Below are positions 154 through 54,482 of a DNA stretch of 64,000 nucleotides, piece after piece. Source of the DNA: Stropharia rugosoannulata (taxonomy: Eukaryota > Basidiomycota > Agaricomycetes > Agaricales > Strophariaceae); contig JANCIK010000006.1 in the NCBI GenBank assembly GCA_028532985.1, positions 1-64,000 of the forward strand, given 5' to 3'. The notes under the pieces are model-generated. The model was not told the DNA's origin, did not search any database, and worked only from the letters and a program-made list of their open reading frames with translations. A program made the translations under genes and the position numbers. Every line of letters starts with the position of its first letter. Position 1 is the first letter of the stretch.

Positions 154-2090
154 AAGTCCTCCAGGATTCACATCCTAAAGGCAACTCACAACGCTCATGC
201 TACCCTCGATCCATCCGACGTAACCGCAGCATGCTATTTTTGGCCTCCACCTCGGCTCATGATGCATCTTATGCATATGAGCCTCTCCCCTACTCAAAAT
301 CTTCTCAAAAACTGTATGACTGCGTCCACCTGGCCTGACGGCCAGGGGATGCTTTGAGTACTGTCTCCAACATATTGAACTGCGCTGCCTTCATGATACG
401 CAGCCAAGACAATCTATTTGTCATGTTCACCGCAGTCCACTTTGCATAACACTATTATCTCCTTTGAAATCTCTCTATAGAAATGCGGAAGCAAGTCATC
501 CAGGATTCACGTCCTAAAGGCGACTCACAATCACTCATGCCACCTTGGATCCATCTGATGTAATTGTAGCATGCTATTTTTGACACCCACTTTGGCTCAC
601 GACGCCGTTTATGCATATGAGCTTCTCCCCTGCCCAAAATCTTCTCAAAATGCATGTGACTGCATCTACCTCACCTTATGGCCAGGGGACGCTTTGGATA
701 CTGTACCCAACGTTTTGAATTGCGCTAGCTTCATATTACGCAGCCAAGGCAATATATTTGTCATGTTCACTATAGCTGACCGTGTATAACATTATCATCT
801 CCTTTGAAATCTCTCTATAGACCTGTGAGACCAAATCCTGCGTTATTCACATCAGTAAGGCGACTCACCAACGCTCATACTACCTACAATACATCCGACG
901 TAACAGTAACATGCTATTTTTGGCCTACACTTTGGCTCACGATGCCGCTAATGCATATGAGCCTCTCCCCTACTCAAAATCCCCTCAAAATCTGTGTGAC
1001 TACGTCCGCCTGGCCTGACGGCCAGGAGACGCTATGGGTACTGTCTCCAACATATTGAACTGCGCTGGTTTTACACTACGCAGCCAAGACAATTTATTTG
1101 TCATGTTCACCGTAGCCCAACGCATATAACACTATCATCTTCCTTGAAGTCTCTCTATAGACCTGCGAGACCAAGTCCTGCAGGATTCACGTCCATAAGG
1201 CGACTCACAATCGCTCATGCCACTTTTGATCCGTCCGGCACAGCTGTAGCATTCTATTTTTGGCTTACACTTTGGCTCACGATGCCGCTAATGCACATGA
1301 ACCTCTTCCCTACTCAAAAATCTTCTCAAAATCTGTATAACTACGTCCACCTGGCCTGACGGCCAGGGGACGCTTTGAGTACTGTCTCCAACGTGTTGAA
1401 CTGTGCTGCCTTCATGATTCGCAGCCAAGACAATTTATTTGTTATGTTCACCGCAGTCCATTTTGCGTAACACTATCATCTCCTTTGAAGCCTCTCTATA
1501 GAAATGCGGAGGCAAGTCATCCAGGACTCATGTCCTAAAGGCGACTCACGACCCTATTGCTACCTTGGATCCATCTGATGTAATTGTAGCATGCTATTTT
1601 TGACCTCCACTTCGGCTCACGACACTGCTAATGCATATGAACCTCTCCCCTACTCAAAATCTTCTCAAAATCCGTATGACTGCGTCCACCTGGCCTGACG
1701 GCCAGGGGACGTTTTGAGTACTGTCTCCAACACGTTGAACTGTGCTGCCTTCATGATTCGCAGCCAAGACAATTTATGTTCACCGCAATCCACTTTGCGT
1801 AACACTATCATCTCCTTCGTAGCCTCTCTATAGAAATGCGGAAGCAAGTCATCCAGGACTCACGTCCTAAAGGCGACTCACGACCCTATTGCTACCTTGG
1901 ATCCATCTGATGTAATTGTAGCATGCTATTTTTGACCTCCACTTCGGCTCACGACGCCGCTAATGCATATGAGCCTCTTCCCTACTCAAAATCTTGTTAA
2001 AATCTGTGTGACTGCGTCCGCCTGGCCTGACGGCCAGGGGACGCTTTGGGTACTGTCCCCGACATGCTGAGCTGCGCCAATTTTAATCTA
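154..2090. repeat. Subtelomeric tandem array, ~340-bp units x 5.7
   Basis: Units begin at about 154, 493, 833, 1173, 1514 and 1846 (spacings 339, 340, 340, 341, 332); the last is partial and homology fades near 2090. Landmarks in every unit are a start like AAGTCCTCCAGGATTCAC, a GCATGCTATTTTTG block, and a CCTGGCC-TGA(C)-GGCCAGG hairpin. Units alternate between two sub-types (for example TAGACCTG versus TAGAAATGCGGA before the start), suggesting duplication of dimers. Short open frames inside are repeat artefacts with no conserved reading frame. Confidence 0.93.
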
Positions 2091-2305
2091 TGCATTCATT
2101 CATGCACCCAATGAAACACCAACTCAGGATCGATGTTACAGGAACACCATATCCCAATCGAGATTTTTCATACTACCATACATAGAAATATAAACACCAT
2201 CACCGTAGCCAAGTCATACCATTACGATAGTAAATTAAATCAAAGTCCCCGCATTTACTATTTAAAACCAACACTTTCTCTGACAAATCTACAACGTTTC
2301 TCCTC

Positions 2306-2899
2306 ATGTCGACATTTGACGAACTTGAACACCTTATCTATGCCTGCAGACGGCTACTAGTGCAAATTGCACATGACTCCCATCTGCCTCATCTGGCAGA
2401 CCACCCATCACAATCACAATCACGTTCCTACCCCCCTGCACCTCCCAATACACCAATACGACCAGTACCTCGCCAACTCACCCGTGCCTGGACTAAACTC
2501 ATCCCTTCGGCAATCCCTGTCGAATTGGTACATCCACTTACGGGCTACAACATATCTGGTGCATTTAACTGCGAGAAACCATGGATGCTTACTGCAAATC
2601 CCTCAAAGGCGATGATTAAAAACAAAAGCCTACTGGAAATCACAAAAACAAATCTATCCGGTACAGCTATGCAAATCAGAACCAACAACGCGATGTATAT
2701 TCAAATTGACAGTATTATTGGCCTACGAGTACGCTCCTACATTGACGTACATGCATCTGTGGCGCCAGGACAATTTGCATCTTCCATGAACATACGTATA
2801 CGCTTAGAATGGTTTGATGTACCACTGATTCTCTACCTCATTCCCCAATCACATTTAAAACCGAATAAAGAAGAGTATGAACGTTACATGCTACTATAG
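2306..2899 (+). CDS. Hypothetical 197-aa protein in the outermost telomeric module
   Basis: I do not recognise this protein. It is the only long frame in the first 6 kb and starts at an ATG with a TATTTAAAA box about 45 bp upstream. Residues 1-30 are leucine/histidine rich, about 35-60 are a proline/serine linker, and 75-197 look like a compact beta-rich domain with several Ile/Val-rich strands (for example around residues 105-175); no signal peptide or membrane span is evident. It lies between the 340-bp array and a hammerhead motif (3840-3898) followed by CCCTAAA repeats, so it may be cargo of a telomere-attached element rather than a host gene. No intron is needed. The function is unknown and I assign none. 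Confidence 0.55.
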   Translation: MSTFDELEHLIYACRRLLVQIAHDSHLPHLADHPSQSQSRSYPPAPPNTPIRPVPRQLTRAWTKLIPSAIPVELVHPLTGYNISGAFNCEKPWMLTANPSKAMIKNKSLLEITKTNLSGTAMQIRTNNAMYIQIDSIIGLRVRSYIDVHASVAPGQFASSMNIRIRLEWFDVPLILYLIPQSHLKPNKEEYERYMLL

Positions 2900-3760
2900 T
2901 CTCTACTAAACTTATTACCATCTCCCCAACATATTTATTAAATAAATAAATCACTAATATCCAAAAAAGAAAAATAAACAAAGATATGTCATAAATATCT
3001 AATACTAATTTCGAAAAAATTGGTCATTCCAATGCATACACCCCTCCCTAAAAAAGAGAGCATCCACCCCATAAATAAATAATTCTATAAATTATAAATC
3101 CCTAGTATCACCCTACATATAAAAGACTGACCTGATTTATCAACACCACACAAATATAAAAAGCCTTGAAGGGATACACAATTCAAGGAAAGAAAGGTGA
3201 TGGTCCCCCAACTCTCTTCCTCCATCATCTTTTATATCCTGTCAGTAGTCATATGTATTTCATCATCATATGATAAATAGCAATCACTTACTAAGATAAA
3301 AGACCAAGATATGTCAGCATTTTAGATTAATAACCAACATATGTCATCATTTAGTCAAACTTATGAGATAATCCCCTACATATGTAACATTCCTCAGTCA
3401 TACTCAACCTACCATTTATCATCATCATCAATAATCACATTAGTAACATTCTAAGGACATGAGTCATCACACATATCATAACTCAGCTGAATCACTCCAT
3501 TCCATTCTTCATCAGTCATTACATTTGATAGATATGTCAGCCCTCTCCATAATATGGCTCTACATTCTTAAATCTGAGTCATGCTATGTAAATCATCATG
3601 ACTAACTGCTTGTTTCTCAGTCAGCTACTCCCAAATCAATGACTAATTGCTACTCTCTGAGTCATTCATTTACAAATCAATGACAAATCATACTAGATAT
3701 GACACCAGAGTATGACATCAATGGAAGATAAATCCATCTCCCATAGATGCTACCATAAGG
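2900..3760. other. AT-rich non-coding spacer with GTCAT/CATCAT motifs
   Basis: About 860 bp with no open frame. It is AT-rich and full of short imperfect iterations of ATATGTCA, TCATCAT and AGTCATNNCAT. A TATAAATACT box (about 3761-3770) begins the following ribozyme-bearing segment. I see nothing else in it. Confidence 0.6.
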
Positions 3761-3839
3761 TATAAATACTCCCCAAAAATGTGGTCAGAAAGGCCATTCT
3801 ACAACCCACTCACCTCACTCATCAACTTCACTCCCCTCT

Positions 3840-3898
3840 CTGGAACTGAAGAAGCACATAAGTGCAGAAATAGGGAATTAGGAGCCCCTATTTTCCAG
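3840..3898 (+). ncRNA. Hammerhead ribozyme motif, copy 0
   Basis: Core: CTGAAGA (3846-3852), stem II GCAC/GTGC with loop ATAA (3854-3865), GAAA (3867-3870). Stem III pairs ATAGGG (3870-3875) with CCCTAT (3886-3891). Stem I pairs CTGGAA (3840-3845) with TTCCAG (3893-3898). The predicted self-cleavage site is after T3892 (AUU). All three helices close exactly where the hammerhead fold needs them. Weak point: the base pair next to the core in stem II is A-A (3853/3866) instead of the usual G-C, so activity may be reduced. A CCTAAACCCTAAAC tract follows 149 bp downstream. Confidence 0.65.
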
Positions 3899-4046
3899 TA
3901 AGAAGTTATTTTCCCTGGATTAGTGAGTTTCTATCCTATTATTTTCTTCACTTTTGTGCTTTCACACCCTCTTCATGAACATATGGCTTTGCTGTCCCTG
4001 TTATTGAAGCTTCAGCCTTTGCAACCCTTTATGGGAAGCTATTCAT

Positions 4047-4060
4047 CCTAAACCCTAAAC
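4047..4060. repeat. Interstitial telomere repeat 1
   Basis: CCTAAACCCTAAAC, two heptamers in the same orientation as the terminal telomere. It marks an abrupt switch from AT-rich sequence on the left to GC-rich sequence on the right, so it looks like the junction between two separately acquired modules. Confidence 0.85.
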
Positions 4061-4628
4061 GTGGCTCGTGTAAGTCCCAATGTGGCCTCGGGTCGCCTAG
4101 TACGCGTCGGTAACTTCTGCGCGCGCGCAGACATCACCGGCGGTGTCACACGCACAGGTAATAGTCCAAACCTTAATAGTCGTCACCCAACTTAGGCACA
4201 GCCGAAGGGGACCGACGGCGCGGCAAGGGCTATTGTTATTTTAAGAACGAAAGAGGCTTCCACGACCGCACTCCCTTAATCGGGACCGCGGGCGGTGTGA
4301 ACCCGTAATTACACCGGCGCGAAACGTCGCCGGTGGGAGATAGTCATTATTTATAGCTGCACTCACGCAGAGGCAGTGTATTTTTGTCTTTATTTTATAT
4401 TTAGACAGCATGAGACGTTCTACTTCTTCGTAGAACAATGGATGGGAGCGTTGAGCTATTCTTGGAGTAGCCCGCGCATGCGAAGCATCGGTTATGATGG
4501 GCCAAAGTGCCCAGATGACCTGGTGACCTGATCATGCGGTGTGGAATGGTCCTCGGGGTAGACAGCGTGTAAACGCATTAGCACCCTCTCATGCGCACAG
4601 ACCGTCGCCAGATGTCTATAAAAGCAGG
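4061..4628. other. GC-rich 5' part of ribozyme module 1, no gene
   Basis: No convincing reading frame. A perfect CACCGGCG/CGCCGGTG hairpin with a short loop lies at 4312-4335, and a GCGCGCGC run near 4121. A TATAAAAG box occurs at about 4617-4624, a few bases before the hammerhead motif. Short open frames here lack any recognisable product. Confidence 0.5.
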
Positions 4629-4703
4629 CCAGGTTGCACTGATGAGGGGTATCCCGAAAGCGCCCTTTACTCCTTCGTTAGGTGTAGGGTCCTTTGCAAC
4701 TGG
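4629..4703 (+). ncRNA. Hammerhead ribozyme motif, copy 1
   Basis: Core: CTGATGA (4639-4645), stem II GGGG/TCCC around a TA loop (4646-4655), GAAA (4656-4659). Stem III begins A4659-G4660 and closes with C4692-T4693, enclosing an imperfect CCCT/AGGG helix (4662-4665 with 4686-4689). Stem I pairs CCAGGTTGCA (4629-4638) with TGCAACTGG (4695-4703), one bulge. The predicted cleavage site is after T4694 (CUU). Every invariant core base is present. Downstream come a 12-bp hairpin (4731-4757) and CCCTAAA repeats (4764-4781). Confidence 0.82.
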
Positions 4704-4730
4704 TCGATACCTCATACAGCTAAGTAAACG

Positions 4731-4757
4731 CCACCACTCACCGAAGGTGAGTGGTGG
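4731..4757 (+). other. Perfect 12-bp hairpin before telomere tract
   Basis: CCACCACTCACC and GGTGAGTGGTGG are exact inverted repeats around a GAA loop. The hairpin ends 6 bp before interstitial CCCTAAA repeats and starts 36 bp after the predicted hammerhead cleavage site. The same order (ribozyme, hairpin, telomere tract) recurs at 5547-5694, which argues for a functional RNA 3' end rather than chance. Confidence 0.8.
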
Positions 4758-4763
4758 ATCCCA

Positions 4764-4781
4764 CCCTAAACCCTAAACCCT
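4764..4781. repeat. Interstitial telomere repeat 2
   Basis: CCCTAAACCCTAAACCCT, same orientation as the chromosome end, directly after the 4731-4757 hairpin. Confidence 0.92.
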
Positions 4782-5147
4782 CTTGGATCCCTCCAAGCTG
4801 GTGCTCTTGGAGCCCCTGTGAGCAGTGTTACTGAGCTGATCCTGTGGGATTTCCAGTACTCTAGTATTGTGCCATGTCCAAGCTTGTGCTATCAGATCCC
4901 ATGTGGCTAGGTTTACTGAGTGGAGCATGTAGGAGTCCTGTTGTGCAGGTATTGCATAGTGCTACCTATTCCAATGTATCCCAACCCACCACCATTATGT
5001 CCCAACACAACCTATCCCATCCCTTCCACCCCCACCCCAACATAACCAATCCACTCTCATTCCAACCCAACTCATCCCATCCCTAGGGCTGAACCCTACT
5101 CCCAACCCTACCCAAAAATGAAAAAGTAGCCCATAACCCTAAACCCA
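4782..5147. other. Short module with pyrimidine tract and weak telomere-like end
   Basis: No gene. 4976-5090 is a run built from CCCAACC/TCCCATCC-like units, almost purine-free in places. The module ends in CCATAACCCTAAACCCA (5131-5147), only about one and a half telomere units, plus degenerate copies near 5090-5115. I find no hammerhead core in it. Confidence 0.55.
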
Positions 5148-5187
5148 GTACTTGAGGTCGTACCCATACAAAGGGAAAACGAAACGA

Positions 5188-5253
5188 GATAAGATAAGAT
5201 AAGGATGTGGCTGTGCCAGATCTAATCAGTTTAGATAAGATAAGATAAGATAG
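5188..5253. repeat. GATAA microsatellite clusters
   Basis: Two runs of tandem GATAA (5188-5203 and 5234-5253) separated by 30 bp. Fungal GATA factors bind such sites when arranged as promoter clusters, but there is no neighbouring gene, so slippage repeat is the simpler reading. Confidence 0.7.
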
Positions 5254-5546
5254 GACGCTGATCATCTGGTAAAGATATACAACACGCCAACATATCGTTT
5301 GCACAAGGCATCTTCGATGCAATCTCACCGATCAACGAGATCGCAATGTTGTACCGCGAAACACCCGCGCAGGTATACGCAGCCTTAACGCTGCCGCGCG
5401 TAGCCATAAGGCTACACCTGTTATACTTGTCAAATACGCCGAAGATGAAACGATATTGCTACATTGGTACGCAAGGCAGCGCGAAACACTTACTGATATC
5501 CAGATATGTAACGCTGCCCAGAGGCTGCGTCTGTCGACGCATCCTA

Positions 5547-5621
5547 GTCAAGTACAGCCACTGACGAGTCTATAAAGACGAAAGGGCCAGCTGGATTAAT
5601 CCCCAGCCCTTTGGCTTTGAC
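5547..5621 (+). ncRNA. Hammerhead ribozyme motif, copy 2 (best)
   Basis: Core: CTGACGA (5561-5567), perfect stem II GTCT-ATAA-AGAC (5568-5579), GAAA (5580-5583). Stem III pairs AGGGC (5583-5587) with GCCCT (5606-5610), continued by TGG/CCA. Stem I pairs AGCCA (5556-5560) with TGGCT (5612-5616), then an internal GTAC bulge and a second helix GTCAA (5547-5551) with TTGAC (5617-5621). The predicted cleavage site is after T5611 (CUU). The internal loop in stem I and the stem II loop are placed as in natural fast-cleaving hammerheads, whose loops make tertiary contacts. TATAAA is embedded in stem II. Confidence 0.88.
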
Positions 5622-5653
5622 TTTCTCCCTTCTCCTCAGCTAACTAGTCGCTC

Positions 5654-5668
5654 ATCGCCTTCGGCGAT
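5654..5668 (+). other. Hairpin before telomere tract, second copy
   Basis: ATCGCC-TTC-GGCGAT, perfect 6-bp stem. It ends 9 bp before CCCTAAA repeats and begins 42 bp after the predicted ribozyme cleavage site. Sequence is unrelated to the 4731-4757 hairpin, but position and shape match. Confidence 0.75.
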
Positions 5669-5677
5669 TTCGCTCCC

Positions 5678-5694
5678 CCCTAAACCCTAAACCC
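5678..5694. repeat. Interstitial telomere repeat 4
   Basis: CCCTAAACCCTAAACCC, same orientation as the chromosome end; the innermost such tract in the window and therefore the inner edge of the telomere-derived module stack. Confidence 0.92.
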
Positions 5695-6059
5695 GAATCC
5701 GGGCTCAGATTTGTTCCCACGGTACTTGCTGGCCCTGTATGGGCCAGTATCTCCCTAGGTCAAGTTAACGTTTTTTGAAGGCTGTTTTGTGATCAGGTCA
5801 AGATCAGGTATGATGTAGGTGTGTGGTAGTGTAAAAAATTAAATTAGCTTAGAATCATCGGTATAGAATGTGAGGCTCGCGCACAAGTTCTCAATGAACC
5901 CTCGAAAGTCATATACTAAAGACGCAATAGAGCTGGATAACTTTCAAGTCGATACAATACTGTGTCTCCTTAAAGTCAATGTATTCGCCCATAACGAGCA
6001 AATAGTATTTTAAACTAGTACAGTTCTTTGGGTACCGACAGTATGTAGCTTAGCAGGAT
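5695..6059. other. Intergenic, small hairpin only
   Basis: No gene visible. CTGGCCC/GGGCCAG (5729-5747) forms a 7-bp hairpin shortly after the last interstitial telomere repeat. Confidence 0.5.
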
Positions 6060-8310
6060 GGACGAACTCGGGGATTTCGCGCGGCTGTACATGCTCGCAG
6101 TCGCCCTCCACCGTCTCAGCCGGTCACCGCGCGCATCAACTGTGTACGCCGACTACGCCGTCGCCCTCTTCGTGTTCTGGTCCTTATCTCCCTCCTGCTC
6201 GTCCTCGCCTCCCTCCCCATGGCCATGACACTCCTCGGAGTGCGTATGGGTCATATACGGGCGGTGCCAGTGTCTGCTCCGCTTGCGTTGCATCATTGAC
6301 CTTAAGAACGTGTTCTTCTGCACTAGGTGGGTAACACGAATCGTCCGAGTGATAAATCAAATCTCGAGCCCCATGTCCTCTGTGTCTTGGAAGCCCTCGC
6401 CATCTCAATACACTTGCCTACCGCCTCGTGACATAGGAATAAGCGACGAGGCAAGGAGTGTAAGAGGAACATGAGACAGCCCATACCACGAAGGAATAGA
6501 CAACAGTGCGGAATATGGTGGAATGGGCAAAGGGCCTGACCGCGGCGGGATGGGATGGGAAAAGGCCCCAATCTCATTGGTGTAAGTGTAGACGACGGTG
6601 GACTCCGTATCCGGGACTGCCGTCCCCCGAGGGCATTCGCCAAATCCACGCCGTCCTGATCATCAAAGTATTCGTCTCCGCCAGATGGCGCGACCCCGCG
6701 TACGCGTTCTCGTCCTCCCCTCCTTCCCATACACACACTCTTAACGTCCGCAGCATCCGTCTCTACCCAGCTACTTCGTTCCGCGTTCCCGACTGCGTGT
6801 TCATGGGCAGAGCTAGCTCGCCATTCGTAGACATACTCGTGGTCGTGTCAAGGTAAACAGACGGGGTTGGTGCCGAAATCCCACCACTCGCACGGAGGGG
6901 TGTCGCTTCGTTTGGAAGCGCAGCGCGCATCTGCGTCGCCCACTTCTTCGCCGGCGCGTACCGCAACATTGCTGCTTCGGGCTTATGTCCTGCGAGGGGG
7001 CGACATTATACCTAAGCCCGCCGCGCACGACAGGTGCCGGGACTTGCTGGCAGACCAACAGGCGTACAGGGCGGAAGCGGATCGGGAACGAGCTCTCCTT
7101 CCCTCTCAACATCTGCCCACCACTTCCCGGTGCCGCTCCTGCTCCTCCCCCACCGGCGCGAAGCTCTGGGGACGTGATCCGTCCTGTCCATGACGTGCTG
7201 CGCCAGCGCAGTCGAGTCTGGGCCTAACAAAGGGGTTCGGCAAGGTCGGCGAGGTATGTTCCCTGTGCAGTGAGCTTGGCATGTTGACATCTCTAGAAGA
7301 TGACGGTAGAATCGGAGGAGGCGAGGAGGTGGTACGGTACTAGGTGGGGGAAGGTCATAACATGCAAGCACATTTGGCGGCGCTGTCGGTCCTATCCCAT
7401 TTTGTACTGGCGAAGGCGGGCGGGGAGCGGTGTCCTCCCAGAGACGGCATGAGCGGGGAGGGTGACCAAATGGAAATCGATCGTATTGGGGAAAGGAGCA
7501 GCTGCGGCTGAGACGAATGCGATCGGGGGCGTATTGGGCAACGGAGACGTTGCTGCTGCAAGCCTGCATTCAGCGGTGACCACCCCCCGTTGCCGACGAC
7601 GTGCCTGTACCTTTAACATGTATAATCCGATAAGCAGAGGCCCCGAGCCCAGCATCGTCGCCGACGATTATGACCGTAAGTGAATCCGAGTGTTCAACAA
7701 CGAGGAGCGGTGGAAATCGCCGTATGCAGGGAAAGGGTGGAGGTGCTGGACAACAGGACGCGACATAGGCTGGGTTGTCGATGGGGTGGGGATTGCCTTT
7801 CTACGCCGCGCAGGGAGGGCGGGGGCAGGCGAGAGGGGCCTATACGTACCTACCGATATATAAGCTGCAGCCATTTCCAGGTAAACAGGGCACATACATT
7901 GATAAATCTTCGTTGCCTGCACTTTTGCTCTTCTCCTGGCCGTACCTGGCAACTCTCGTCTTATGCCCGCCGTGACCCAGACTGCTCCTCATCGACATCT
8001 ATCACACCGGACATCGATGGAGTAGAACCACATAGCAGGCGTTCCGGGTCCGAAACGAGGTCTTCCTTCATCCAGCTGTGCGGTGCGCCGAATGGGAGTG
8101 ATCTGAAGCGAGACCGCTGGCTCCATTACAAGTCCAAAGCGACAATGAGACGGGGTGAAAATTTGTTTACAAACAGACATACCTAGCAACCCTTGCCCTC
8201 GTCATACGGCGCCTGTACTCCTCGACTTTGCTTTACTGCATACTTGTATTGATCTGGACGTGACAAAGGACGTGAGGCCTGCCTGTTTCTCAGCGAGCCA
8301 TACTTAGATG
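6060..8310 (-). other. GC-rich region with probable unresolved minus-strand gene(s)
   Basis: Base composition jumps here and both strands have many overlapping frames, which GC-rich DNA produces by itself. On the minus strand several pieces look coding: one around 6580-6860 with an acidic stretch (GGDEYFDDQDG), one ending at 6763 (about 68 residues, APAKKWATQMRAALPNEATP), one near 7400-7655 and one near 7670-7950, plus a possible first exon near 8190-8365. They are separated by sequences with plausible GT...AG boundaries, as expected for a multi-exon, proline/serine/arginine-rich fungal protein. I cannot join them with confidence and recognise no domain. A copy of the 75-bp repeat found again at 11.35 kb lies at its 5' side. 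Confidence 0.35.
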
Positions 8311-47800: not shown

Positions 47801-48280
47801 TTTATTTTATTTTTATTTTTATTTTTCGTTTCAAATGGCATTGTATAATTCTATCTCTTATTCGAGTGTTGGCCTCAGCCGCGATCGCGGATCTAATGCA
47901 GGAATAAACACTGTAACTTTTATATATAAGTGCAAGCACCATCTTAACTACAAAAAATCACTGTAGTCCGAAGTTTGTGCACGAAAGAATGATAAATGCA
48001 ACGGCAGTTTAAGTGCTCACCTCGATTAGGCCTGAAACCAAAGTTAAAAAACTGACCCACGCTCTGATCCGGTTGGACATAGCCGGACTCTAGCGATGAC
48101 TGTTAACTTATTAATAAAAACCGTATATGGAGTAGGTCAAGCGTCTGGCATTCCCACCCAGCTCTTTCAATCTTGTCATACCATATGGAAGAAGAACAGC
48201 TGCTGTCGCACCTACGAAACGGCTACCTAGCCTCCAGAAGAGATACGACATACATACGTTCTTTCCTAGATGAATCATCA
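47060..48280. repeat. Segmental duplication, copy 2 (pairs with 42400-43660)
   Basis: See 42400-43660. This copy retains the complete F-box gene downstream, so it probably represents the source arrangement. Confidence 0.75.
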
Positions 48281-49855
48281 CACCAACTCAGTGGCATCGA
48301 ACGGGAGATGAATGCAAAGTTTGCACAGCTCGAACAACTAGAACAGCAGTTGTTAAACCTTCAAGCCGTATGTGAGCCTTACAAAGGCCTAATACATCCA
48401 ATTCGACGCCTCCCCATGTCCGCACTCCAACTTATCTTTCTGTATTCACTCCCAATCCATAGCAATTCCTATGTTGGCTATACGGATTCCCCACTCCGAC
48501 TCACACACACCTGCAGTCGCTGGCGAGAAGTGGCGATCAATACTCCATCACTTTGGACATCCATATATTTTCGAACTCCAGAATTCATGATATATGATGA
48601 ATGTAGCGAAATACCGTGGCATGTCTATTTCAGGAGAAAGGCCGAGATGGTAACGAACTGGCTAGACCACTCCGGCGACTGTACGCTACACATTTCACTG
48701 TGGATAACGACTGTTCTCGAGGAGGCGGGCCACGGTTTGAACATAATTCTGGACGCATTGATGCCATCCACTAGACGTTGGGGTACTCTCCACCTCAATG
48801 CAGCTGATGGAAGTCTGGACAGGATTGCTTCCTTACCATTAACCGCACTTCCTCGCCTACACACTCTCACTGTACCATCCGAACTGCATCTATTTACTCC
48901 ATACGACATGCAAATTAAAGTAGCAAACTGGGCTACAAGCGGTCCAGTCAGCGCACCTAGGCTCACGAAAGTATCCTACGGCGGTAAGAGAGAAGATTTT
49001 GGTCAATTCAGGCTCAACTGCAGTCAGCTCACATCCGTAACGCTTCATGGTGCGAAGGACTTCGTGTCGTTTTGGCATCTTAACCAATTTTTACTACGAT
49101 GCCCACTGTTATGGGACCTTGGCCTTGATATAAGCGGACATCAAATCGATCCCAAGAACAATTTGGAAATGCCTCGGATCATCCCACTTATTCATCTAGA
49201 AAGTCTCTGTCTGCGTGTATCAGACCCATGCCATTATGACGCGCATGTTGTCTTTGACAGGCTTTTCCTTCCATCTCTAAAGACGCTCGAGCTGGACTGT
49301 AGGGGCATTTCATCCATTCTAATGATCCTCGGCCAGGTTCCCTTGGGGCTCGAAACACTAATAATAGATCCATTCATATACTCAGAAAAACACAGTTTCC
49401 TTGATTCCATTAGACCATTCACCACTTTGAAGAATCTCATACTGAAGCGGAGCATGTACGGCGCTCGGCCAGATAACACAGCTCTTTTGGGACAGCCTAG
49501 ATTGGAGAATGCATTCCTCTCATTCTTCATCACCCAATCTGACAACATTGAACGACCGCTTTTTCCAAGTCTCGCATCATTCACGTGTCTAGTCCGGTCT
49601 GCGTTTTCTGATCAGGCCATCCTTGACTTCGTTAATCATGGTCAGGACACGTTAAAGAAGATATCTATTACGCAAAATACCAAACATCACCAACCTACAA
49701 TGCAAATGAAGGGCGAAATGTTTTCCCAGCAGGGCATAATTTTTGAGGTCCTTGCGCCTTCGGATTTTATGCATGAAACCACTGGTTTTAGATATCCTGC
49801 AAACATGGGCATAGAACGCCGGCAAGGGCGGAATAAAGGGCTTCCATTATTTTAG
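48185..49855 (+). CDS. F-box-like protein 1
   Basis: Intronless, 556 aa from ATG 48185; an in-frame ATG at 48173 would add four residues, but the truncated duplicate at 43574 conserves the 48185 start better. Residues about 34-62 form a coiled coil rich in Glu/Gln/Leu (GIEREMNAKFAQLEQLEQQL), followed by the F-box-like segment: HPIRRLPMSALQLIFLYSLP, then LRLTHTCSRWREVAINTPSLWTSI. The remainder is leucine-rich with irregular LRR-like spacing. This coiled coil plus F-box plus LRR-like layout is typical of the very large mushroom F-box families; the F-box would bind Skp1 in an SCF ubiquitin ligase, and the C-terminal part would choose the substrate, which is unknown. Confidence 0.86.
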   Translation: MEEEQLLSHLRNGYLASRRDTTYIRSFLDESSHQLSGIEREMNAKFAQLEQLEQQLLNLQAVCEPYKGLIHPIRRLPMSALQLIFLYSLPIHSNSYVGYTDSPLRLTHTCSRWREVAINTPSLWTSIYFRTPEFMIYDECSEIPWHVYFRRKAEMVTNWLDHSGDCTLHISLWITTVLEEAGHGLNIILDALMPSTRRWGTLHLNAADGSLDRIASLPLTALPRLHTLTVPSELHLFTPYDMQIKVANWATSGPVSAPRLTKVSYGGKREDFGQFRLNCSQLTSVTLHGAKDFVSFWHLNQFLLRCPLLWDLGLDISGHQIDPKNNLEMPRIIPLIHLESLCLRVSDPCHYDAHVVFDRLFLPSLKTLELDCRGISSILMILGQVPLGLETLIIDPFIYSEKHSFLDSIRPFTTLKNLILKRSMYGARPDNTALLGQPRLENAFLSFFITQSDNIERPLFPSLASFTCLVRSAFSDQAILDFVNHGQDTLKKISITQNTKHHQPTMQMKGEMFSQQGIIFEVLAPSDFMHETTGFRYPANMGIERRQGRNKGLPLF

Positions 49856-50194: not shown

Positions 50195-51760
50195 ATGAAT
50201 ACCGACCTTTTACCACACCTCCTCACGAACTATGTTCCAACAGATCAAGAAAGAAACAATATTACCACTTTCCTGAGGGACAGACACTCCGAGATTCAGG
50301 TTTTGCAATATCACATTGGTGTTATACGCGCGGAGTCTCTTGCTCTTAAAGAACAACATACAAGCCTTCAAAGGACAATTGACATTAACAAAGCAGTGAT
50401 TTCTCCCATTCGATCCGTCCCCGTTGAAATACTGCAACGGATATTTCTGCATTGTCTACCACACGACCGGGAAGCAGCCATTCAAGTGCAGGAGTGCCCG
50501 CTTCTGTTAACTCACATCTGTAGTTACTGGCGCGCAATAGCATTGTCCACACCTCGGCTTTGGGCCTCGCTCCACATCGCCATTTCCACCAGTAACGTCA
50601 GAATTTCAAGAGATAGTCAAGAAGCCTTCTTCGATATGTTCTCGCGTATCGTGGATCACAGGATAGAGGCTGTCACTGAATGGCTTCGTCGCTCTGGTGA
50701 TTGTACATTGGATATCACCCTTTTCAGCAATGCAGACTATGTACTCCTTCAACGAGTTCTTGACGTAATTCTTCCACTTTCCAACCGTTGGGGATCACTT
50801 CACCTATATGCAAAGGAAACCTTTCTCGGTCGTATTCAAGCTCTGAAAAAGAATAATCTGCCCCGCTTGCACACTGTTACCTTTTCTATGGGAAACGACA
50901 AATTAATGTCAAGGTGGGCTGGAAGTGGAATATTCCAAGCCAAAAACCTGAAGTCACTCTGCTTGTATCCAACGCAACTTAATCCCGATCTTAACGTGTT
51001 AACTCCTGCACGTCACTCACAAATCACCTCATTATATCTACATTGTATTCATTGCCTGCAATCCTTCAGTTTCTTAGACCTCTGCAACTTTCTTGCCCAA
51101 TTTCCACTTCTCGCCGAACTTGGGATGGAAATATCTACTGAATTCAGAACACCCGCCATGATGGTTATGCCTATCCGAGTCTTACCGACAGTATCCTTAC
51201 ATTGCCTCACCAGTTTTAGCATGCAATTTTCCAAAAATACCGGCCGTCTCACTCGGTTTTTCCAGGCTTTAGATATGCCAGTCGTCACTTCTGCGAGTGT
51301 TTTCGCATATTTCCAGGTTCCAATCTCGCAGTTGCTCTCGAACGTCTCTCATACACTGCGCGTTCTGGTTATCGACCCCACCTACATGACATGTGCAGAA
51401 TTTGGAGCGTGCATGTGTGCTCTACGCAACCTTACACATCTTACCGTCACAAGAAACACACACCACGGATATCTGAAACCGCTAAGTGGGGATTCGCGCA
51501 GAAATGCTGTGCAACTGGGTGACACATTTCTCTCCTTGTTTATCCTTCCCCAACATGAAAACAACAGCGACCAGACATTTGTCCCAATCCTGTCGGCCTT
51601 TCGCTACGAAATTACCAGCTGCTTCTCCCAACAGGTCATACTGGATTTTGTGTACAGTCGTCGAAGTCACTTGAAGACTGTTTATATCAAGAGAAATCAA
51701 AAGGACGGCGAGGATGACTTCAATCTTCTAGTTGATGGAATTGATTTAGTATTCTACTGA
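50195..51760 (+). CDS. F-box-like protein 2
   Basis: Intronless, 521 aa. An N-terminal coiled coil (about 30-62, including RDRHSEIQVLQYHIGVIRAE) leads to the F-box-like segment: SPIRSVPVEILQRIFLHCLP, then LLLTHICSYWRAIALSTPRLWASLHIAI (about 70-130). A C-terminal leucine-rich region follows. It has the same architecture as the neighbour at 48185, including the motif W-L-[DR]-x-S-G-D-C-T-L after the F-box in both proteins, so the two are tandem paralogs that have diverged strongly. Predicted role: substrate receptor of an SCF-type ubiquitin ligase; target unknown. Confidence 0.86.
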   Translation: MNTDLLPHLLTNYVPTDQERNNITTFLRDRHSEIQVLQYHIGVIRAESLALKEQHTSLQRTIDINKAVISPIRSVPVEILQRIFLHCLPHDREAAIQVQECPLLLTHICSYWRAIALSTPRLWASLHIAISTSNVRISRDSQEAFFDMFSRIVDHRIEAVTEWLRRSGDCTLDITLFSNADYVLLQRVLDVILPLSNRWGSLHLYAKETFLGRIQALKKNNLPRLHTVTFSMGNDKLMSRWAGSGIFQAKNLKSLCLYPTQLNPDLNVLTPARHSQITSLYLHCIHCLQSFSFLDLCNFLAQFPLLAELGMEISTEFRTPAMMVMPIRVLPTVSLHCLTSFSMQFSKNTGRLTRFFQALDMPVVTSASVFAYFQVPISQLLSNVSHTLRVLVIDPTYMTCAEFGACMCALRNLTHLTVTRNTHHGYLKPLSGDSRRNAVQLGDTFLSLFILPQHENNSDQTFVPILSAFRYEITSCFSQQVILDFVYSRRSHLKTVYIKRNQKDGEDDFNLLVDGIDLVFY

Positions 51761-52424: not shown

Positions 52425-54482
52425 ATGGACTACAGAGACCTCATTCCTGAGCTCAGGAGTTTCGCAGAAGATAGAAGGCAACAAAGAGCATCACAGAACA
52501 GCACGCAGGGGTTGGAACAACTTCTTCAACGCTTCGATTTCGCCGATCTTCTTCACGCTATCGTACAACCTGCTCGTCATGTTCCTTCAGCTGTAACAGC
52601 TCTAAGAGCCGATGGAACCGACACGGAGACTGTCAACACTGCCAGGCGCCTCGTACAACGCAGAAGGCAACATCCGGTTACGCCATACCACGCGGACGAA
52701 TGGGAGCGACTGCTTCAGCAATTACAGCTATCCGATAAATACCCCACCATCGTCCAGTCGCTTCGTCAAGGATTTGATGTTGGTATAGGACGCATAACAA
52801 AAACAGAGACACCGCCAAATACCAATACAATTGACAAGCATGCAAATGCATACCAGAATATCATCGACAAAGAATTCTCAATGGGTCGATACTTAGGTCC
52901 GTACCCAGCAAGAGTTGTCCAGGCCGTCATCGGTTCCTTTCAATCATCCCCTCTGTCCATAATTCCGAAATCTACACCTGGCAAATTTCGCGCAGTGCAT
53001 AACTTCTCGTATCCATATGCCCCTCGCGGATCCTACAAGTCCATCAATCACACCATCGACCCTGACCAGTATCCGTGTACATACGGCACCTTTGACATAG
53101 TCTCGCATATCATTTTCCATCTTCCACCAGGCTCTGAGGCTTCGACTCGTGATATTTCCGAGGCTTACCGCACGATCCCTATCATTCCATCACAGTGGCC
53201 AGGGCTCGTTGTGCGACTGAGCGGACAAGATTCCTACGCCATTAACACAAATAACAACTTCGGGCTCAGTTCTGCAGGCGGGATCTTCGGCCAAGTCGCA
53301 GACGCCTCCGCGGACATCTTTCGTGCATCCGGTATCGGCCCTGTATCTAAATGGGTTGACGACTACATTTTCTTTAGGGTGCCTCGTGAGCAGATTAACT
53401 TGTATAACTCTCGCAGAAGAGAATGGCGTAGGGAGATCGAACGAAACGGTGGAGAAGCGCAGAAATCTTCAGGTCGTATTTTCTTTGAAGGAGATGTCAT
53501 GATGGCGACTGAGGAGCCAGCCGAGTTCGACGAAGACATGGTATTCCAAATGCAGGACCTCTCTAGGCAGTCACCTCGATCACCCCATGATTCCCGCTTC
53601 TCATACAGCGATGAAGATATCGATCAGATCTCACAGCGGCTCGGTATCCCCTGGGAGGGCACCAAGACAGTTCCTTTTCGTCAAATAGTCAAGTATATCG
53701 GCTTCACGTGGGATCTAAGCTCCAAGACCGTCTCGATCCCCGAGGATAAGCGCCAGGAGTATGCTCTGGAGATCTTGAACTTTCAGCAAAAGGGCTCGTG
53801 TAACCAGGAAGACGTACAGAAGCTCTATGGAAAGCTCAATTGGGGATGCATGGTTGCTGTAGCCGGTCGAGCGTATATGACCAGTTTGGAGACATTACTT
53901 TCCACCTTTTCCTCGCTTCCTGGTAATGTCGACCTTCCTATACCACGTGAAGTGAACAAGGATCTGGAATGGTGGCTGGATACACTTTGTTGCGGGATTG
54001 AAAGAGCCGTTCCAGGACCTTACAATGTTGTTGACATGGAGGCATATTCTGATGCCAGCACTGAGGTTGGGATCGGCATAACTATCGGGCGACGTTGGCG
54101 TGCATGGACGTTACTTCCAGGCTGGAAAGCCGAAGAACGAGATATTGGATGGGCAGAGGCGGTTGGGTTCGAGTTTCTCGTGCGCATTCTCTGCACGATG
54201 GTCAGACCCGGCTCTCACGTCAGAGTTTATGGGGACAACCAAGGTATCGTCGAAGGCTGGAGAAATAAAGGAAGAAGCAGGAATAAGCCAAGCAATATTG
54301 TCTTTCGACGCATCCACAAAATTTCCGCGGCGCATAATTGCACCTTTGTCACTCGGTACGTTCGAAGCAAGGAAAATCCCGCTGATGGCCCGTCACGAGG
54401 AGTATATCCTCCCATTCAGAACCTCCTTCCTCGAATTCCAATTCCACAAGAACTGCGCCGATTTATCGCTGATAGTCATTAA
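52425..54482 (+). CDS. DIRS-type reverse transcriptase-RNase H
   Basis: A single 685-aa frame. RT domain about 150-330: motif A TRDISEAYR (catalytic Asp 243), NFGLSSAGGIFG (about 278-289), and motif C WVDDYIFF with Asp 312/313. Further RT/thumb sequence to about 500 includes KYIGFTWDL. RNase H about 535-660: YSDAST (Asp 543), WAEAVGFE (Glu 578), VYGDNQG (Asp 604), NPADGPSRG (Asp 654). All catalytic acids are present, so the enzyme could be active. The family is that of basidiomycete DIRS-like tyrosine-recombinase retrotransposons, but no tyrosine recombinase, gag or methyltransferase frame lies within several kb. Residues 13-50 and 74-112 look like two copies of one motif (RRQ..., L-L-Q-x3-F/L-x-D-x4-I-V-Q). 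A 5' relic of a second copy is at 36595-36905. Confidence 0.88.
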   Translation: MDYRDLIPELRSFAEDRRQQRASQNSTQGLEQLLQRFDFADLLHAIVQPARHVPSAVTALRADGTDTETVNTARRLVQRRRQHPVTPYHADEWERLLQQLQLSDKYPTIVQSLRQGFDVGIGRITKTETPPNTNTIDKHANAYQNIIDKEFSMGRYLGPYPARVVQAVIGSFQSSPLSIIPKSTPGKFRAVHNFSYPYAPRGSYKSINHTIDPDQYPCTYGTFDIVSHIIFHLPPGSEASTRDISEAYRTIPIIPSQWPGLVVRLSGQDSYAINTNNNFGLSSAGGIFGQVADASADIFRASGIGPVSKWVDDYIFFRVPREQINLYNSRRREWRREIERNGGEAQKSSGRIFFEGDVMMATEEPAEFDEDMVFQMQDLSRQSPRSPHDSRFSYSDEDIDQISQRLGIPWEGTKTVPFRQIVKYIGFTWDLSSKTVSIPEDKRQEYALEILNFQQKGSCNQEDVQKLYGKLNWGCMVAVAGRAYMTSLETLLSTFSSLPGNVDLPIPREVNKDLEWWLDTLCCGIERAVPGPYNVVDMEAYSDASTEVGIGITIGRRWRAWTLLPGWKAEERDIGWAEAVGFEFLVRILCTMVRPGSHVRVYGDNQGIVEGWRNKGRSRNKPSNIVFRRIHKISAAHNCTFVTRYVRSKENPADGPSRGVYPPIQNLLPRIPIPQELRRFIADSH

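Follow-up and report, generated by a model that had tools for sequence, protein, structure and literature searches.

The window, a 64-kb stretch of DNA taken as a whole, comes from a 48-Mb genome in 20 contigs, where it forms the left end of contig C6; the chromosome-end features described here lie on its + strand. The terminal telomere, read as the C-rich strand (CCCTAAA)n, occupies positions 1-150 (TRF reports 1-153, period 7, 22 copies). Abutting it is a 340-nt tandem array of 5.7 copies (151-2077; TRF and genome comparison) that forms the 5' part of an element, E1 (2071-4060), delimited by four genomic copies with a common 3' end and closing in a C-strand telomeric tract (4047-4060). Genome comparison then places three further elements in a row. 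The first is the 5'-truncated 3' end of a Penelope-like element, E2 (4057-4763, from E2 coordinate 3510 onward), with a perfect 12-bp hairpin (4731-4757) and a C-strand telomeric tract (4764-4781). Element D (4784-5138) follows, set apart by a telomeric tract (5137-5146) from the 5'-truncated 3' end of a second Penelope-like element, E3 (5147-5674), which has its own hairpin (5654-5668) and C-strand telomeric tract (5675-5694). E1, E2 and E3 each hold one hammerhead ribozyme motif.

Deeper in the window, a 685-aa open frame (52425-54482) has RT-like motifs by eye and no Pfam match; beside it are an F-box-like frame (48185-49855) and a frame without match (50195-51760). On another chromosome, at the left end of C8, a Ty3-type pol fragment with RNase H, integrase and chromodomain (L068, 75-2662) abuts the contig end.

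The three hammerhead motifs

The descriptor used to search for the type I core asks for CTGANGA, GAAA, T16.1 and H17, together with a helix I no shorter than 4 bp, a helix II no shorter than 3 bp in which a first mismatch is allowed, and a helix III with three or more of its four pairs formed. Run on both strands, it finds exactly three sites in the window, all of them on +, and none in 60 equally long windows simulated by a first-order Markov model; the descriptor was designed with the sites already known, and its tolerated mismatch is what admits site 1. The motifs lie at 3840-3898, 4629-4703 and 5547-5621, with U16.1 at 3891, 4693 and 5610, so that cleavage is predicted after 3892, 4694 and 5611 (3892/3893, 4694/4695 and 5611/5612). 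All three have the CUGANGA...GAAA core and U16.1-H17 at the cut. A sequence-only reading of this DNA had reported three such motifs with these strands and cuts, and cleavage-site spacings of 802 and 917 nt; both are reproduced. Its further claim that the stems close in register holds in that the descriptor finds three helices in register, helix III included, at every site, and the G10.1-C11.1 pair is present at sites 2 and 3; at site 1, however, an A-A at 10.1/11.1 lies beside the core and passes as the tolerated mismatch. The helix sequences are unlike among the three sites, which belong to three separate elements, in agreement with the difference in sequence that had been noted.

How well are the motifs kept elsewhere in the genome? 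All 16 complete E2 hammerheads have an intact core, and 13 of them are identical; the C1R and C15 copies have one change each and the C9int copy three, all in helix III. Four of the five E3 hammerheads are intact, the C7-right copy being the one without C11.1, and the four E1 hammerheads are identical. The pattern CTGANGAGN8CGAAA has 19 matches across the genome, 16 of them in E2, against 6 for a reversed control. The other matches were rejected as hammerheads: C2:2800951 does not satisfy the descriptor, and helix I is absent by eye from C7:1034297 and C7:1104127. In the window and the rescanned loci there is one hammerhead per element, near its 3' end.

Covariance models and folding, proposed earlier as checks on the motifs, went against them. 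Rfam returned no family at gathering score over the 64-kb window, and a permissive scan of 3600-5900 gave only RF00008 at 5530-5583 (20 bits, E = 0.57); the curated hammerhead models thus fail at sites 1 and 2, and at site 3 give a weak, partial match. A genome search with RF00163, in which 73 of the 7529 first-look candidates were scored, gave nothing at E up to 10, and the same model has sub-threshold matches in 11 of 14 control genomes. The hammerhead is the minimum-energy fold at none of the sites. It is furthest from the minimum in E2 (-16.9 against -30.2 kcal/mol) and E3 (-17.1 against -24.0), and close to it in E1 (-16.5 against -17.7). The minimum-energy folds of E1 and E2 retain the three helices, with the A's of GAAA paired to the T's of the cut site, and that of E3 is a different fold. 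A MAFFT alignment of the hammerheads was set aside, as it misplaced E3. On balance there is a good case that the E2 and E3 hammerheads are real motifs preserved by past selection.

Does site 1 belong with the other two? The A-A beside the core, found in all four E1 copies, makes it the weakest and least certain ribozyme of the three. We incline only slightly against the view that it is a chance or decayed look-alike, a ribozyme that does not work. That view draws on the A-A, on the lack of a detected RT in E1, and on the distance from predicted cut to telomeric tail, which is 155 nt in E1 and 64 and 70 nt in E3 and E2; it must nevertheless accommodate a motif that otherwise satisfies the descriptor, has the strand and relative place of those in E2 and E3, and folds as a hammerhead near its energy minimum. 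Our confidence that the E1 motif is catalytically active is low.

The elements and their copies

The longest E2 copy, at the right end of C8, is 4227 nt long and is interrupted by the telomere inside an open frame of 1025 aa. This frame matches RVT_1 with E = 4.4e-6 and 27 bits, just below the 29.6 cut-off. Its RT has 67 homologues among 7999 scored candidates, the best 43% identical over 98% of the query, and the three of the 67 that name an organism come from the basidiomycetes Bondarzewia, Fibroporia and Armillaria, so the DNA is itself likely from a basidiomycete. For the RT part taken by itself (residues 228-759), the top six Foldseek rows and the top 11 VIA-align rows for the predicted fold are all telomerase; a sequence search of solved structures gave no match of note (one row, E = 0.4), and no relatives of the RT were found in viral and genome contig collections. 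GIY-YIG was not found in the 1025-aa frame, which comes from a 5'-truncated copy and includes the C-terminus. The same scan does detect GIY-YIG in P0065 and P0067, remote members of the 67 and the only two to combine it with RT.

E3, in its longest copy, carries the end of a related RT in a 377-aa frame; identity to the E2 protein is 43% across 210 residues of the RT region, and to P0036 61% across 272 columns. An RT tree puts the two families in different supported sets; this tree was made quickly, drew warnings of long branches, has an outgroup that does not form a single clade, and includes E3 with 27% of the columns filled. They are alike in having hammerhead, hairpin and telomeric tail, with differing helix sequences; given their separate places in the RT tree, the common tail may be ancestral. 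The E2 RT is telomerase-related and homologous to Penelope-like RTs, and the E3 RT is homologous to them as well. Lack of a detectable GIY-YIG domain, location at chromosome ends, an inward 3' end and the complement of the telomeric repeat are all as in endonuclease-deficient telomeric Penelope-like elements. We hold with high confidence that E2 and E3 are the tails of telomere-attached elements of this kind, an association that had been suspected from the sequence. The accompanying idea of a single family of small telomeric ribozyme elements has to be given up: sites 2 and 3 sit in the truncated tails of two RT-encoding families and site 1 in a third, unrelated element, and the spacings of 802 and 917 nt come from how the copies happen to be truncated and stacked; they are not unit lengths.

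Copy numbers, all lower bounds, are at least 18 for E2 (28 match rows less 10 reverse rows from the palindromic hairpin), at least 5 for E3 and at least 4 for E1. On the coordinates of the longest copy, E2 starts at 17 different points, namely 1, 1775 (two copies), 1784, 2230, 3113, 3132, 3167, 3330, 3510, 3525, 3564, 3962, 3964, 4046, 4067, 4107 and 4144, accurate to a few nt, as telomeric or D letters may lengthen the alignments. The copies end at 4222-4227 or at 4189. None starts exactly at the predicted cut (4148/4149 in E2 coordinates), the nearest being the C11 copy, aligned from 4144. No complete 5' end was found among the copies, and no giant multi-ORF unit was seen. The one E2-E2 tandem, on C9, consists of truncated copies and holds no complete unit.

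The 3' end of E2 is itself variable. Five of the 18 copies (C7L, C5L, C5R, C11 and C9int) have no hairpin, and in these GCCACC is joined straight to the telomeric tract. Internal initiation has been described for a Penelope element in the available text of PMC11167929, and the hairpin-less ends may reflect internal initiation by a telomeric primer. In three of the 13 hairpin-bearing copies the loop is flipped, GAA for TTC; these are the window copy (4743-4745) and those of C4 and C8R. Both Penelope families have degenerate C-strand telomeric tracts directly after the RT frame (C8 left, 7567-7593, which is L014 1100-1126; and L078 3150-3240), so that roughly the last 1.1 kb of E2 resembles a telomeric unit of its own.

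E1 copies share their 3' end, those of C1 and C10 starting further 3'. Outside the window the 340-nt array is found only on C3, and a 197-aa open frame of E1 (2306-2899) is likewise confined to C6 and C3; this frame matches no Pfam family, and none of 56 candidates is a homologue at E up to 0.001. RT was not found in the 1990-nt E1 reference, though both long copies are possibly cut off upstream. At its end E1 follows the pattern of E2 and E3, a hammerhead before a C-strand telomeric tail, and it has likely been moved in trans.

Element D has 28 match rows in the genome besides the window. A search for its 3' end, GTAGCCCATAACC, finds that end continuing into 17 different flanks, the window included, with or without telomeric repeats; five of the flanks are truncated E2 ends. 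The descriptor finds no hammerhead in the window D or in the rescanned D loci L047 and L049, and the hammerheads of L048 belong solely to the neighbouring E2, E1 and E3. It is possible that D is a fourth end-attached family, one that has no ribozyme. The D loci are L004-L006, L012, L014, L023, L025, L047 and L049-L054, and some copies are preceded by an 85-nt satellite.

Proposed attachment to chromosome ends and the possible part played by the ribozyme

How did these elements come to be where they are? Pointing inward, with the 3' end away from the nearest contig end, are 26 of 27 copies (E2 18/18, E3 4/5, E1 4/4), and 22 of the 27 are no more than 50 kb from a contig end; the 27 are spread over 16 contig halves. 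The other five are more than 200 kb from an end, and one E3 copy points outward. This last copy (C7:3322967) and the elements at C10:275039-276360 lie 220-275 kb from contig ends, and are possibly internalised former ends. The elements are stacked head to tail in varying order: E1-E2-D-E3 in the window, D-E2-E1-E3 on C10, E2-E2 at C9R and E2-E1 at C1R. Copies of E2 and E3 start at different 5' points and share a 3' end made of the hammerhead, mostly a hairpin, and then CCCTAAACCC. The terminal telomere directly caps six of the 18 E2 copies (C8R, C1R, C2, C9R, C7R and C11); at the left end of C11 only 46 nt of E2 separate it from a second telomeric tract.

The reading we favour, and regard as quite probable, is that the three type I motifs occur in the 3' tails of stacked retroelements near chromosome ends, that the RNA of E2 and E3, Penelope-like elements with no detectable endonuclease, likely anneals by its CCCTAAA tail to the chromosomal overhang and is copied onto the end, and that the ribozyme would likely trim read-through RNA from these stacks. 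A chromosome 3' end, TTTAGGG, could anneal to the CCCTAAACCC tail and act as primer for the first cDNA strand. The inward orientation fits such priming by the G-rich chromosome 3' end, and one 3' end with many 5' starts is what reverse transcription that began at the 3' end and stopped early would leave. The six directly capped E2 copies indicate that a truncated end was capped anew, presumably by telomerase. That copies were truncated and then re-capped with telomeric repeats can be read from the junctions; the pairing, the priming and the action of telomerase we infer.

What might the ribozyme do in such a cycle? Every complete genomic copy spans the predicted cut, so the RNA templates that were copied were uncut there. 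On the RNA that serves as template, the 3' ribozyme may be slow or blocked. It may work mainly on transcripts of the array, in which cleavage by the ribozyme of the distal element would release the 5' end of its neighbour. With the templates uncut, we think it likelier that the ribozyme processes read-through RNA from arrays than that it processes the 3' end being copied; a structural role is a strong competitor, and our confidence in what the predicted cleavage does in these elements is low. In Drosophila, a 3' promoter of HeT-A drives the next element. A putative promoter, TATAAAA (4617-4623), stands immediately 5' of hammerhead 2, and a similar TATAAAT (3761-3767) lies upstream of hammerhead 1. 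By analogy, it is conceivable that these TATA boxes serve as 3' promoters for the next element.

In that structural role the hammerhead fold would be preserved chiefly as a tag that presents the telomeric tail or is bound by the RT, and cleavage would be dispensable. We lean against this possibility but take it seriously. Besides the uncut templates, it can call on D, which joins the same ends with no hammerhead; on Anolis Penelope, where hammerhead mutants left in vitro insertion unaffected in the available text of PMC11167929; and on a proposal, in the portion available of PMC6431247, that the fold exposes the telomeric stretch. A pure tag, however, would have no need of the core nucleotides, and the core, beyond the helices, is intact in all 16 complete E2 copies, one of which matches the reference at 90% across 1026 columns. 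The hammerhead and tail 75-nt bins of that copy are low, with three changes each, which adds slight weight on the same side, as one upstream bin is equally low.

One might think instead that the elements spread by subtelomeric recombination or duplication and not by reverse transcription onto ends. Exchange between ends does occur: the E2 copies of C7L (L070) and C8L (L069) share one 5' junction and are 99.7% identical over the 1.5 kb beyond it, while their 3' ends and inner flanks differ, which indicates that recombination between chromosome ends also contributes; the C15 copy starts 9 nt from that junction and is 97% identical over 826 nt beyond, and the window subtelomere recurs in part on C7 at 93%. 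As the main route it is nonetheless improbable, since duplication alone would not be expected to give many 5' starts, one 3' end and varied inner flanks, nor the 46-nt copy of C11 lodged between two telomeric tracts. A retrozyme-like cycle, in which cleavage at two adjacent hammerheads of a stack (head-to-tail order does place at least two on one possible transcript) releases circular RNAs that are then copied, is very improbable, because neighbours differ in kind and truncation, leaving no defined unit between two ribozymes, and genomic copies end in the telomeric tail and not at the predicted cut.

Returning to attachment by annealing and copying, a broader version can be put forward tentatively, and we would not yet bet on it. 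At least four elements, two RT-encoding Penelope-like families, E1 and D, would attach to ends through a common C-rich tail that resembles a telomerase template and acts as a docking device; the telomerase-like RTs would mobilise E1 in trans, making it the telomeric equivalent of a retrozyme.

Comparison with known systems

Cervera and de la Pena are said to have described, in 2014, monomer-stable hammerheads encoded by fungal Penelope elements, and the motifs here may be that already known fungal form. According to the part of PMC7761336 available, the type I hammerheads of Penelope-like elements are minimal variants that lack helix III or loop-loop contacts; ours are also type I, but have helix III. 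The retrozymes treated in the available text of PMC7761336 and PMC9695139 resemble E1, and E1 only, in placing a hammerhead in an element with no RT of its own. They differ in that no unit flanked by two hammerheads, and no defined circular unit, was found in the window and rescanned loci, and in that our elements are attached to telomeres.

Penelope-like elements are reported at the chromosome ends of Agaricus bisporus (PMC7473861), and in location our elements are like these and the other chromosome-end Penelope-like elements, fungi included, of PMC7473861 and PMC12477314. The available text of both makes no mention of a hammerhead for the fungal end elements, and the likeness is one of description, not of sequence. 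The literature searched, which did not take in key earlier work on hammerheads and Penelope elements, holds no description of a hammerhead at a fungal telomere.

The closest parallel is with the Terminons and Athena elements of bdelloid rotifers, in which, by the available text of PMC6431247, a 3' hammerhead is followed by reverse-complement telomeric repeats. Endonuclease-deficient Penelope-like RTs, 5'-truncated head-to-tail stacks at telomeres and the 3' layout are common to both. As far as that text goes, the differences are that the RT here is nearest to basidiomycete proteins among the homologues that name an organism; that the tail is CCCTAAACCC, in place of the rotifer ACACCC/TCACCC; and that helix III is present, and E2 and E3 have an extra hairpin before the tail. 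No giant multi-ORF unit was seen among copies of which the longest is 4.2 kb and is cut short by the telomere. The Terminon-like 3' layout is itself known, then, and it is E1 and the ribozyme-free D that are the least conventional parts. What does the parallel add? On these ends telomerase-type repeats and retroelement attachment occur together, and the telomere-capped 5' truncations are a record of individual events. The role of the hammerhead in such elements becomes a question that can be put to test. And the presence of the rotifer layout in what is probably a fungus, in two separated RT lineages, suggests that this layout is an old one.
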